NCBI GenBank assembly: GCA_903873905.1
Contig: CAIQQJ010000176.1
Coordinates: 1-47,326, forward strand
Length of the DNA: 47,326 nucleotides
Source of the DNA: an uncultured Flavobacteriales bacterium
GTDB taxonomy: Bacteria > Bacteroidota > Bacteroidia > Palsa-965
Reading direction: 5' to 3'
A program made the translations under genes and the position numbers. The first letter of the stretch is position 1. The number at the start of each line of letters is the position of its first letter. Under the pieces are notes generated by a model. It had not been told where the DNA came from and did not search any database. It saw only the letters and a program-made list of their open reading frames with translations. Positions 1-29,190 of the stretch are shown piece by piece.

Positions 1-213
1 ACGAAACAGCAAGTTCCTTCGCGGAATGGCATGCTGATGATAATTTGTAGAAAATATTTTTTATTTTTTTGAAGCACGTCATCGTCTTGTTCTAGAAACA
101 CTTCACCTGCTTTCCGCTTTTGCATGGCAACCGCTGCAATCAGGGCTATTTTAGAACATCGCAGTATTTACTTCACGAGATGCAAACAAGAAAAATTTGT
201 GAAGGAGAAAAAA
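1..213. other. left edge, no secure gene
   Basis: Nothing here can be called firmly. A minus-strand frame opens at an ATG at 125..123 (MQKRKAGEVF...) and stays open to the left edge, about 42 codons, so it could be the start of a gene that continues outside the window. I do not recognise the translation and there is no clear promoter, so it is left uncalled. Confidence 0.3.
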
Positions 214-4496: not shown

Positions 4497-7400
4497 ATGA
4501 GAAGGATTCCCCTACTATGTCTGGCATTGCTATGCTCGCTATTTGCTAATGCAACTCACATTGTCGGCGGTTCGCTGACTTACTCTCATCTTGGAGGCGC
4601 GACTTACAGAATTACGCTCAAGATGTATCGAGATTGCCGACCAACCAGCGTATTTTTTCCCGCCTCCGTTACGATTGAAATTCGTGATGTGAATGGGAAT
4701 AATTTTTCACCTACTAAGGCCCTCACAATTCCATTTACAACTTCAACTATGGTCAATCCATATATTGATACTTGTGCCGTGAACCCTGGAATTTGTCTCG
4801 AAGAAGCTTCTTATGTTGCTGTAGTAAATAATCTTCCTCCTCAAACCGGTGGATATCAACTTTATTATAATTATTGCTGCAGAAATAATTCGCTTACGAA
4901 TGTTGTCAATCCACTTAATGTCGGCGAGGGATGGTATACACACATTCCCGATGAATCAGCTTTGATTACGGATGATAGTCCTGTTTGGGTAAATCCTCCT
5001 CCTGTTTTCGTTTGCCAGGGAAATCCTATCAATTTCAATCATGGCGCTACTGATGCAAATGGAGATTCACTGCATTATTCTTGGTACAATGTTTCAGATC
5101 AAAATCCTCCAACTTTTCCTGGTGGAATTGCAACATTCACTCCTATTCCTTGGGTAGCAGGATTTGGTCCCAACAATCCTTGTGGAGGTCCCAATCTTAC
5201 CATGAATCCAAACACTGGATTTATTTCAGGTGTTCCAACTATGATTGGACAATTTGTTGCAGGAATAAAATGTGAGGAATTTAGAAATGGTGTGAAAATC
5301 GGAGAAATTCTTCGAGATTTCCAATTCAACGTAATTTTTTGTCCGCCTGTAGCACAAGCAAGTTTAGCTGCACCAGTAGGCGTTTGTTCCGGTAGCAATG
5401 TTCAATTCATTAATACAAGTGATCCCGCCAATAACTATTTCTGGAATTTTGGAGATGGAACAACCCTAGCCGATACATCTCATTTGCTCCAACCGAATTA
5501 TACTTATCCAGGTCTTGGCCCTTATACGGTTACGCTTGTTATCAATGTGGGGACTGCCTGTGCTGATACTGCTACACAAATTGTTCAGTTGTCTTTTGTT
5601 ACAACTTCCATGACACCTTCAAATGATAGTGCTTGTGTTGGGCAGCCCGTATTGTTTACCGACAATTCTGTTCCTTCACCGAATTCCACACTTTCAAGTT
5701 ATTGGTGGGACTTTGGTGATATGAGTACTTCCACTCTGCAAAATCCTTCGCACACCTATGGATCAAGTGGAACATATGTGGTTTTTCATTCTGCAACAAA
5801 TAGTTTGGGCTGTAATGACACCATTTCGCAATCCATCGTTGTTCTTGCTGCGCCTATTGCGCTTGCAGGAAATGACACGTTTGCTTGTACCAACAATTCT
5901 ACTTTTGGTCTTGGCGGAAATGTACTGAATGCTACCGGTGGAATTTGGGCTGGGTCAGGAACCTTTACACCGAACCCAACAGTTCTAAATGCAACGTATA
6001 CACCAACTCTAGCAGAAATAGCTGCAGGATTTACGTACCTCACTTTGACCACTACAGGATATTCACTTTGTAATCAAAATGTGGATTCTGTAAGAATTGA
6101 TTTTACACCAGGCCCAACTTCAAATGTAGGACCTGACATTATCGTTTGTCGTGATACTCCTTCTGTGGCTGTTTGTGCAACTATTACACTTGCAACAGGG
6201 GGTATTTGGTCAACATCAGGTTGTGGTGCATTTGCAAATCCCAACTTGCTTTGCACTTCCTACACGCCATGTCTAGCAGACCAAACCTCAGGACAGGTGT
6301 GGTTGTATTTTACTACAACAGTCGGAAATGGATCTTGCTTCCCTGAAACAGATACGTTGGTGCTTTTCTTAACACCACCACCAAATATTTCTGCAGGTGG
6401 ACCAGATTCTGCTTGTAGTAATCTTCCTTTTTCAATAACCGCTTCAACAGCAACAGGAGTTGGATATTGGAGTACAAGTGGTGATGGAACTTTCCCATTG
6501 GGAGATTCACTTTTGACAACGAACTATTTGCCGGGCACAGGAGATTTGGCAACAGGAAGTGTCATGATCATTTTCAATTCGCTGAATAACGGTGGATGTC
6601 AACAACAACATGATACTTTGTTTGTAACCATTATTCCTGCACCGAATGCACAATTTACTGCGGTAAGTGAATGTCCAGGAGTGCCAATTCAATTTACCGA
6701 TTTGTCAACTTCCGTAACATCAATTGTTTCATGGAATTGGAATTTCGGAAATCCTCCAACGAATAATACTTCAGCGCTGCAAAATCCAAGTCATACTTAT
6801 CCTGGTGGAGGATCCTATAATGTGACGCTAGTCGTTACCTCCACCAATGGTTGTCCTGACACTGCAATAATTCCAACACAGGTTTTTCCAAATCCTATTC
6901 CTGCTTTTACAACAAATGGTAACTGTTTGAATGACGGAACTGTATTTACGGACAATTCCACAATTGCTTCAGGAAGTGTTGTTGCATGGCAATGGGAATT
7001 TGGAGATGGAAACAATGGAATTGGAACTCCTGTTTCTCATATTTATGGATCATCTGCAACCTATAACGTAACCTTGATTGCAACTTCAGATCATGGTTGT
7101 GTGGATTCCATTACAATGCCATTAATTATTCATCCTTCACCAACAGCTTCATTTTATGCCACTCCGCCAACTGTTGCAAACGTGAATGAAAATGTACATT
7201 TTACAGATCAATCCTATTCAAATATAATTGCATGGTTGTGGAATTTTGGGGATTCAAGTAGTGTTGTTACACAACAAAATCCTGATCATTCCTGGCCGAA
7301 TGCGGGTGTTTTTCCAATTACATTAATAGTTGCTGATTCAAATGGGTGCACCGATACACTTGTTCAGGATTATCTCATCACTTCACCGCCTATTGTCCCT

Positions 7401-25363: not shown

Positions 25364-25379
25364 TTTGAAAAGCGTACTT

Positions 25380-25454
25380 GTCAGACGGAGTGTTTTTTGT
25401 CAACTGAAATAGAGGAATTCTAATCAAAAGTTAGCTGACAAAAAATGTATCGAA
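25380..25454. repeat. convergent-gap repeat, copy B
   Basis: About 75 nt: GTCAGACGGAGTG, hairpin feet TTTTTTGTCAAC and CTGACAAAAAA, then TGTATCGAA. It is shared with 21675-21750. The hairpin interior differs, while the feet and flanks are kept. Confidence 0.75.
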
Positions 25455-26693: not shown

Positions 26694-26818
26694 GGCGCAA
26701 CCCTCTCGGGTCGGGCTCATTAGTGGCAAGTCCTCAGCCGTGGTGTAGGGTTTTCAAACCCGACACCACGGCTTCTGGGCTTTCTCTCGAAGGGACCACT
26801 ATGTGGCACTTCTATCCC
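26694..26818 (-). ncRNA. structured repeated element, copy 1 (candidate noncoding RNA)
   Basis: Noncoding, GC-rich for this window, in the 322-nt gap 26603-26924. On the minus strand: a 5' hairpin (GGGA..CCAC with GTGG..TCCC), box GAAAGCCCAGA (26784-26774), an 18-bp hairpin with one mismatch (26773-26756 with 26753-26736, 2-nt loop), box GAGGACTTG (26735-26727), then a GACCC-GAGA-GGGTT stem-loop (26712-26699). AAGCC and GGACTT can pair across the base of the central hairpin. The two boxes and the hairpin position recur in copy 2 at 29090. No ORF here looks real. Confidence 0.6.
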
Positions 26819-26910
26819 TTGCGCATGGAAATTTATACACTCGATTGTCTTGAACATAAACTCATAACTTCGGCCTTCTTGTGAAGAACCACCAACAAGC
26901 AAACTTCTCG

Positions 26911-26918
26911 TAAATTTA
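26911..26918 (+). promoter_or_regulatory. -7-like box near start codon, WG-repeat gene
   Basis: TAAATTTA, one base off TAnnTTTG, with 6 nt before the ATG at 26925. No -33 box was found. Confidence 0.3.
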
Positions 26919-26924
26919 CCCGCA

Positions 26925-29039
26925 ATGCAAAAGCGAATTCTCCTGCTTTTTATTTTTTCAATTGTCACATCACTTTCTGTTTCCGCTGGTAAACTTGAAA
27001 AGGGATTTGAAGCTTTGCGCATTTACAATTATTTCAAGGCACGCGAAATTTTCAATTCATCACTGCATAAAAATCCAATGGCCGCAGGCTTCGGACTTGC
27101 AACAATTTATTCCAGAACCGACAATCCTTTTTACGATGTCAATCTCGCGCATTCTGCAATTCTTGTTTCCACTTGGGGAATAACCAAAACTTCTGAAAGT
27201 GAAAAAGCAATTCTCGTGAAGTTTGGGGCTACTGAAAAAAATATTATTTCCCTGAAAATTTATATTGACACACTCGCTTTTCATGTGGCCGAAAAGAAAG
27301 CAAGTGTTGCCGCCTGGAATGAATACCTCGATTTTTATTGTGGTTCTGTATTGACAAAAGAAGCAATTACAATTCGGAATGAACTGGCATTTGGTGAAAC
27401 ACAAATTGCTGGAACATGGGAAGCATATAAAAACTTTGCTGTTTTATATCCTGATGCCATTCAACATCAAACCGCAATTTCCATGTACCAAAGGTTGCTG
27501 TATGAAACGGAAACAAAATCGGGGAACATTTCTTCCTATGAAAAATTTCTTGTTGATCATTCTGAAAATCCATTCTGTACGAATGCCGAAGATGCCATTT
27601 TTAGTTTATCAGTGCCTGATCACAACATGGAGGAATATCACCATTTCATTCTGAAATATCCAAAAAATAGAAATGTTACAGATGCGTGGAAAAGTGTTTA
27701 CGCATTATATACGGCCGATGGAAAATCAACCACTATTGCACAATTCTGGATTGCCTATCCCGATTTTCCTTTCAAGGAAACCATTAGCGAAGATTTGCGT
27801 TTATCGATGACCACTTTTTATCCCATACGGCAAAATGAGAAATGGGGTTTTATGGATAGTACAGGGCAAATTATTATTCCATGCGCATTCGATTGGGTGG
27901 AATCTTTTTCAGAAGGAATTGCAAGTGCAGGAAGTAATGATAGGAGTGGTTTCATTGGTAAAAATGGCAAAATCGCAATTGCTTTTGATTTTGATGAAGT
28001 GGAAGCTTTCAATAAAGGATTGGCACAAGTGAAAAAAAATGGGAAAGTGGGTTTGACTGATCGTGCAGGACATTTGGTTGTTCCAATCGTTTATGATGCG
28101 ATCAGTGATTTTTATGATGCGCGTGCTGTGGTTGTTCGTGACGGGAAATACGGGTACATCGATATGTTTGGCAGCGAAGTGATCGCTTGTCAATATGAGC
28201 AGGCGGGTGATTTTTCAGGTGGTATCGCATATGTTGTCGACAGTTCGAAATACGGTTTCATTGATCATTCTGGGAAAATAATTATCAATTGTGAGTTCGA
28301 ATGGGTGGAAAATTTCGATCATGGTTCCGCGCGTGTGAAGAAGGATGGGAAATATGGTTTACTCGCGAGTGATGGAAAATTATTATTGCCTTGTGAGTAC
28401 ACCAATATTTCTGGTTTCACCGAAGGATTTGCCATGGTTGTTTTAAGTGAACAATGCGGATACATTCGCCGCAACGGAACTTTTGCAATTTCCTGCAAAT
28501 ATGAATTAGATAAAAATCTGTTGGGCGAAAGCACATTTAAAAATGGATTAGTAAGAATAAAAAACAAGGGAAAATGTGGCATGCTCGATTCAACTGAAAA
28601 GGTAATTGTGCCTTTTGAATTTGATGATGTTCTTCCTTTTGAAAATGGTTTGGCGCCCGTTAGGAAAAAGGAACTTTGGGGATTTATAGATTCAAAAATC
28701 CGATTGGTCATTCCTTACCAGTACGATTGGGTAAGTTCTTTTAGCAATGGCATGGCAAGAATTAAAAGAGACGATAAAATAGGTTGGATTGATACCAAGG
28801 GCAAAGAAATTATTGTGCCGCAATTTCAAAATGCAACTTATGTGAATAGGTTTATTTGTGTGAATGATGGAAATGCAAATGGCTTGATGGATAAAAAAGG
28901 AAATTGGATTTTACCTTGCAACTATTCGAAAATTGAATTTGTTGATGCAACAATTCTCCGAGTGGAAATGAATGAAAAATTCGGCTATTACAATATTGTG
29001 AAATGCGAATTTATTTGGAAAGAGGATGGAGTGGAATGA
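26925..29039 (+). CDS. WG-repeat protein, exported
   Basis: A 704-residue protein. Residues 1-21 are a signal peptide (RILLLFIFSIVTSLSVSA). Residues 22-290 look helical and resemble TPR-like coils (FEALRIYNYFKAREIFNSSL). From about residue 300 to 700 I count about 11 WG/KWG repeats with the pattern KWGFMDSTGQIIIPCAFDWV, KYGYIDMFGSEVIACQYEQA and KYGFIDHSGKIIINCEFEWV. Proteins with WG repeats occur widely in Bacteroidota; the repeat forms a beta-rich solenoid of unknown binding partner. ATG 26925 follows a TAAATTTA box by 6 nt. The gene is bracketed by two inverted copies of the structured element described separately. No enzyme motif is seen. Confidence 0.88.
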   Translation: MQKRILLLFIFSIVTSLSVSAGKLEKGFEALRIYNYFKAREIFNSSLHKNPMAAGFGLATIYSRTDNPFYDVNLAHSAILVSTWGITKTSESEKAILVKFGATEKNIISLKIYIDTLAFHVAEKKASVAAWNEYLDFYCGSVLTKEAITIRNELAFGETQIAGTWEAYKNFAVLYPDAIQHQTAISMYQRLLYETETKSGNISSYEKFLVDHSENPFCTNAEDAIFSLSVPDHNMEEYHHFILKYPKNRNVTDAWKSVYALYTADGKSTTIAQFWIAYPDFPFKETISEDLRLSMTTFYPIRQNEKWGFMDSTGQIIIPCAFDWVESFSEGIASAGSNDRSGFIGKNGKIAIAFDFDEVEAFNKGLAQVKKNGKVGLTDRAGHLVVPIVYDAISDFYDARAVVVRDGKYGYIDMFGSEVIACQYEQAGDFSGGIAYVVDSSKYGFIDHSGKIIINCEFEWVENFDHGSARVKKDGKYGLLASDGKLLLPCEYTNISGFTEGFAMVVLSEQCGYIRRNGTFAISCKYELDKNLLGESTFKNGLVRIKNKGKCGMLDSTEKVIVPFEFDDVLPFENGLAPVRKKELWGFIDSKIRLVIPYQYDWVSSFSNGMARIKRDDKIGWIDTKGKEIIVPQFQNATYVNRFICVNDGNANGLMDKKGNWILPCNYSKIEFVDATILRVEMNEKFGYYNIVKCEFIWKEDGVE

Positions 29040-29089
29040 TTTGGCTCGTTGATTTCTATTGTGAATTAAAAGCATAAAACGAACTTAAC

Positions 29090-29190
29090 TAGCCCCGGGT
29101 GAAACGGAAAGCCCGGAATGCGCAATGATAAGTTGTTTTTAAACACAATGTTGATGCGCATGAGGACTTGTAGTGGAACACGGGACAGGT
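29090..29190 (+). ncRNA. structured repeated element, copy 2 (candidate noncoding RNA)
   Basis: Noncoding, in the 258-nt gap 29040-29297. It reads TAGCCCCGGGTGAAAC, then box GAAAGCCCGGA (29107-29117), a hairpin with feet ATGCGCA (29118-29124) and TGCGCAT (29155-29161), box GAGGACTTG (29162-29170), then TAGTGGAACACGGGACAGG. CCCG (29094-29097) can pair with CGGG (29181-29184), and AAGCC (29109-29113) with GG-A-CTT (29164-29169). Copy 1 has the same boxes at the same hairpin feet but a different hairpin sequence. Nothing else is seen in this gap. Confidence 0.6.

Follow-up and report, generated by a model that had tools for sequence, protein, structure and literature searches.

Flavo-1 elements of an uncultured Flavobacteriales bacterium are probably palindromic DNA repeats with exchangeable hairpins

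Introduction

Two intergenic elements in a 47,326-nt contig of an uncultured Flavobacteriales bacterium (CAIQQJ010000176.1; the whole contig is called the window below) carry the same sequence boxes around hairpins of unrelated sequence. How can the boxes stay fixed when the hairpins that they enclose differ completely, and does such an element act as RNA or as DNA? The preliminary description regarded both copies as members of a structured RNA family and proposed the Rfam family Flavo-1 (RF01705) as the nearest relative. Flavo-1 was given as a probable RNA by Weinberg 2010 (PMC2864571), and a 2022 review counts it among the most abundant bacterial small RNAs (PMC9029176). The present analysis suggests that Flavo-1 is here probably a dispersed, non-autonomous palindromic DNA repeat of ~60-130 bp with exchangeable hairpin cassettes, and not an RNA gene; no description of Flavo-1 as a mobile repeat was found in the open-access literature.

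Flavo-1 elements in the window

Side-by-side reading of the copies distinguished two classes. Class B elements have the arrangement TAGCCCCGATTGCAGCGGAAA-helix-hairpin-helix-TTGCAGCGGAAAGCGGG, class A elements add an outer helix (GCGTG/CACGC) and a second hairpin, and a minimal one-motif form, in which a hairpin is set into TTGCAGC^GGAAAGC, is also present. Copy 1 is a class A element on the minus strand (26694..26824), in which an outer helix GCGCAA/TTGCGC (its pairs were counted across class A, see below) encloses the boxes, the central hairpin and the second hairpin. Its parts, all on the minus strand, are the 5' arm GCGCAA (26819..26824; GCGTG in most copies), an arm insert with two mini-hairpins GCCACATAGTGGTCCCTTCGAGA (26785..26807) that only a minority of the other class A copies share, the 5' box GAAAGCCCAGA (26774..26784), the central hairpin (26736..26773), the 3' box GAGGACTTG (26727..26735), and the second hairpin CCCGACCCGAGAGGGTTG with the 3' arm TTGCGC (26694..26715). 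The inner palindrome of the central hairpin recurs as the hairpin type in ~20 other copies and is similar to palindromes on either side of a Y1-transposase gene in region L059.

Copy 2 is a class B element of the classic Flavo-1 layout on the plus strand (29090..29189), with an outer helix between CCCG (inside AGCCCCG) and CGGG. Its 5' box GAAAGCCCGGA (29107..29117) and 3' box GAGGACTTG (29162..29170) enclose a central hairpin (29118..29161) unrelated in sequence to that of copy 1, with the feet ATGCGCA (29118-29124) and TGCGCAT (29155-29161). In both copies the boxes lie where they had been placed and touch the hairpin feet. For the copy 1 stem, which had been given as 18 bp with a 2-nt loop, the loop (GA) was correct, whereas the stem consists of 17 pairs and one C·T mismatch. 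The proposed pairing of AAGCC with GG-A-CTT beneath the hairpin is part of the RNA fold predicted for each copy (folding z-scores of -5.9 for copy 1 and -1.9 for copy 2), and it covaries across copies. The 5' box alone, with one mismatch allowed, occurred within chance for the window (26/100 shuffles).

A third copy at ~99..151 on the minus strand has a degenerate one-motif form, TAGCCCTGATTGCAGC-GGTTGCCATGCAAAA-GCGGAAAGCAGG (RF01705 33.7 bits, E 3.6e-5; 37.4 bits with our model R1, described below), and an apparent fourth, the class B start TAGCCCCG, lies at the contig end (47319..47326, plus strand). Both ends of the contig (1-230 and 47263-47326) are in or near Flavo-1 copies, as are the ends of several other contigs (C20, C40, C59, C94 and C141), a pattern that suggests breaks of the assembly within the repeats. 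A second repeat family of like design is present at 25378-25454, with the boxes CTTCGATACA and CACTCxGTCTGAC around a variable hairpin; further copies lie at L075:2005, L078:2053 and L083:1985, and one is nested within a class A hairpin (L056:846).

Family identity and copy number

The box-N(10,40)-box pattern has 30 exact occurrences in the 3.93 Mb genome compared with none for the reversed control, which bears out the expectation of a family with many further copies. Comparison with Rfam gave a divided result. RF01705 has 72 matches in the genome, 10 of them above the gathering threshold (42 bits), and none in 14 control genomes, whereas neither copy 1 nor copy 2 reached the gathering threshold of any Rfam family, and relaxation to E 10 added chance matches only. 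The link to Flavo-1 comes through sister copies with identical boxes that do pass the threshold, including C10:6924-7022, whose boxes and hairpin type are those of copy 1. The boxes, the hairpin type and the class A arms tie copy 1 to Flavo-1; copy 2 shares the Flavo-1 helices and conserved strands (aligned with 28 others over 8 pairs, 93.5% paired). Judged by these sequence features, both copies are Flavo-1 elements. They share with the Rfam family the outer helix, the two AGCGGA-containing conserved strands, the inner box helix, the occurrence in Bacteroidota and the high copy number, and differ from it in the additional GCGTG/CACGC helix and second hairpin of class A and in the DNA-repeat behaviour described here.

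The covariance-model search that had been proposed was run in this genome and its relatives with R1, which was trained on 29 sequences, eight of them from this genome. Copy 2, itself in the training set, scored 43.4 bits. At least 100 copies were detected in this genome, compared with 29, 5, 5, 4, 1 and 0 in six same-genus genomes, the last of which is near-complete; presence of the element is lineage-specific. No related copy was found in plasmid and phage collections, and a scan with proteins for named relatives matched unrelated WG-repeat proteins only.

Helix covariation

The expectation that the structure covaries was confirmed for the box helices and the outer helix. Among 29 diverse copies with the hairpin interiors trimmed, 93.5% of the cells were paired (67.5% after shuffling), with 60 double changes versus 21.6 and a covariation score of 0.62 versus 0.15 (0 of 500 shuffles). 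When the partners were slid by 1-3 columns, at most 48% of the cells were paired, and the covariation was seen again in a set of 97 model-fitted copies. The terminal inverted repeats of class A were fully paired in 56 of 57 copies, distributed over GCGTG/CACGC (46), GCGTT/AACGC (6), GCGCA/TGCGC (3) and GCGTA/TACGC (1), with one mismatched.

RNA helices normally contain several percent G-U pairs. The elements contained 689 Watson-Crick, 6 G-U and 7 A-C pairs. G-U being as rare as its mirror mismatch A-C, the structure would be strand-symmetric, although this result is suggestive only, because just eight pairs were counted.

Genomic placement and the RNA reading

The window region is syntenic in relatives of the same genus. 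In the same-genus syntenic genomes examined, neither spacer contains an element: that of copy 1 (321 nt here) is shorter, and that of copy 2 (258 nt here) measures ~90 nt in one relative and ~20-25 nt in two others. In codirectional spacers, nine copies were sense and ten antisense, giving no strand preference, with a further 20 copies in convergent and 13 of 52 in divergent spacers (simple ORF calls, in a sample chosen for elements). Class A copies have a T-run before the hairpin and A-rich sequence after it, and at least six of the last eight nucleotides of the 5' flank were T in 37 of 53 copies.

A structured small RNA as catalogued in Rfam would be transcribed, bind a protein or a target through its motif pair and carry the hairpin as a neutral cap. 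The strong helix covariation, the conserved unpaired motif TTGCAGCGGAAAGC, the folding z-score of copy 1, the pairing kept at orthologous sites (sites 2 and 4 below) and the original assignment of Flavo-1 all fit such an RNA. It is disfavoured by the variation from at least 100 copies here to none in a near-complete genome of the same genus, by the syntenic absence of both elements, by the even sense and antisense counts and by the lack of a G-U excess over A-C. In addition, published RNA-seq of F. psychrophilum shows no relation between Flavo-1 matches and transcript strand, the matches being sense or antisense alike and many lying outside transcripts (PMC9723704). The claim of a selected RNA is therefore left unsupported, and we consider a small RNA improbable.

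Occupied and empty sites in a second genus

Occupied and empty versions of four sites were found in a second, densely sampled genus (that of genome G032, 173 genomes); three of the sites are just downstream of a conserved terminator. Region L109 of G032 carries two elements; R1 had no match in 20 orthologous regions, and in the orthologous spacers that were read the same terminator is kept and the element is missing. At site 1 the element begins directly after the T-run, the elements at sites 2 and 4 are likewise 3' of a terminator, and that at site 3 is directly upstream of a start codon. Site 3 spans ~126 nt in G032 but 4-14 nt in G203, G138 and G088, which lack the element. This is the cleanest empty site, at which 3-4 nt are replaced with no clear target-site duplication, the nearest species being ~85-90% identical.

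Two further features were noted at these loci. Both G032 sites (L109 5000-5050 and 9055-9112, and orthologues) have another dispersed palindrome, CCACCCCGNCAAAAATTTCTNAGAAATTTTTGCCACCCCTCC, downstream of the element. The site 2 spacer of G138 (L204 ~4900-5200) has, in place of the element, a short open frame (MKKILKNQMQEIKGGL...) which resembles a small leader-peptide or bacteriocin-type gene.

Hairpin exchange at orthologous sites

The difference between the hairpins of copies 1 and 2 had been ascribed to compensatory change. Orthologous sites revealed wholesale replacement of the hairpin instead. The insertion at site 1 is common to six species with homologous flanks: in G032, G138 and G203 a short hairpin is bracketed by GGAAATCC...GATTGCA, whereas the same outer arms enclose other boxes (AATTGTCTGAGCTCATTTT...AAAATAGCGAGT) and a long hairpin of unrelated sequence in G135, G119 and G063. 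At site 2, the latter three genomes again carry the same new cassette type, with outer arms that are those of site 2. The outer arms are therefore characteristic of the site, and the inner cassette of the genome. G032 and G210 have nearly identical arms and boxes at site 3, with hairpins that are unrelated. At site 4, a REP palindrome of the CTTCGACAGGCTCAGC type lies inside one arm in G138 and G088 and is missing in G032 and G210. Thus, the combination of fixed boxes and unrelated hairpins that posed the initial question is seen at single loci.

The main alternative to exchange is that shared occupancy of some sites could reflect repeated insertion of variants at a hotspot, which is disfavoured at site 1 because both the unusual outer stem GCGCG and the flanks are shared. 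Outer pairs also change in a compensated-looking manner, from C-G to T-A at site 2 and between A-T and T-A at site 4 (G032 compared with G210). These changes would also fit selection for structure in place, so that a function of the structure, as RNA or DNA, is conceivable.

The palindromes that replace one another while the arms are kept are often repeats themselves. The genome contains 100 copies of CCCAACA-N4-TGTTGGG (control 0), a palindrome that occurs at three element positions, in the CTTCGATACA...CACTCAGTCTGAC repeat family and also free, and TGTCGGGT...ACCCGACA was found inside elements and beside a Y1-transposase gene. We tentatively propose, at somewhat less than even chance, that Flavo-1 is a hairpin acceptor, whose central palindrome would, within a genome lineage, be repeatedly overwritten by resident REP-type palindromes via an exchange guided by structure. 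Such an exchange, by template switching or by transposition of single strands into the hairpin tips, would lead to concerted evolution of the hairpins, with the arms following the locus.

Proposed mode of movement and alternative mobilising systems

For the DNA repeat as a whole, we infer movement as folded DNA, in which the element would move as a folded single strand and an enzyme supplied in trans would recognise the paired TTGCAGCGGAAAGC motifs together with the outer helix. Landing would be preferred next to T-runs, including those of terminators. Pairing would persist since copies that cannot fold would neither spread nor be tolerated, and the hairpin tips would be exchanged through REP insertion or conversion among copies. 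The intervals between neighbouring copies were inspected for a transposase or an autonomous unit and contained ordinary genes only (for example, judged by eye from their sequences, uvrC-, FBPase-, fumarase-, dapF- and icd-like genes).

A Y1 (RAYT) transposase could be the mobilising enzyme, which would make the element an unusually long REP/REPIN-like repeat. This was an attractive idea from two adjacent copies, since the sole Flavo-1 copies of G001 (L191:1965-2039) and G025 (L182:2038-2120) lie ~60 nt and ~180 nt, respectively, from a Y1_Tnp gene. Hairpin tips resemble the palindromes around the L059 transposase, and Y1 subclass 2.6 in Bacteroidetes has been reported with atypical flanking structures (PMC6006769). 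However, the hypothesis failed on copy-bearing genomes without any Y1 gene: G020 (27 copies) and G026 (9 copies) have no PF01797 match, so Y1 transposases are not required, and no transposase could be tied to the element. Moreover, the element was present at only these two of the 32 Y1 loci examined, and G002 has four Y1 genes and no element. We consider mobilisation by RAYT unlikely.

The element resembles several known systems in part. REPs are defined as palindromes of 20-40 bp with a GTAG or CGTC tag (PMC3733652). Flavo-1 elements are, like REPs and REPINs, dispersed intergenic palindromes that need pairing, and have REP-like palindromes as hairpin tips, but they are longer (60-130 bp), have the consensus motif TTGCAGCGGAAAGC with no GTAG or CGTC tag found, and lack a consistent RAYT partner, whereas REP copies are expected on either side of their cognate tyrosine transposase gene. 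Like MITEs, they have a short terminal inverted repeat (GCGTG/CACGC, class A), no gene, high copy number and empty sites, whereas no target-site duplication or parent transposon was found; to our knowledge, exchange of hairpin cassettes is not a standard property of MITEs. In the folded single strand of integron attC sites, the boxes are fixed and the terminal structure that they surround is variable. Flavo-1 likewise has fixed boxes around a variable hairpin, but no R/L box consensus or cassette array was seen and the elements are single in their spacers.

The element is very unlikely to be a transcription terminator or an insulator maintained between genes, even though copies are intergenic and three of the four G032 sites adjoin terminators, because the class A hairpin has T before it and A after it, which is the opposite order to that of an intrinsic terminator (a GC-rich hairpin and then a T-run) whichever strand is read, the neighbouring terminator is present without the element in sister species, and elements also occur in divergent spacers.

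Implications

Strong covariation is by itself no proof of RNA function. A widely annotated Rfam family probably labels repeats and not RNA genes, and genome annotations and small RNA counts of Bacteroidota would need correcting. If the hairpin-acceptor reading is true, a mobile DNA repeat that is listed as an RNA family would be evolving in a new way, and orthologous sites with swapped hairpins make in-place replacement of palindromes directly testable.
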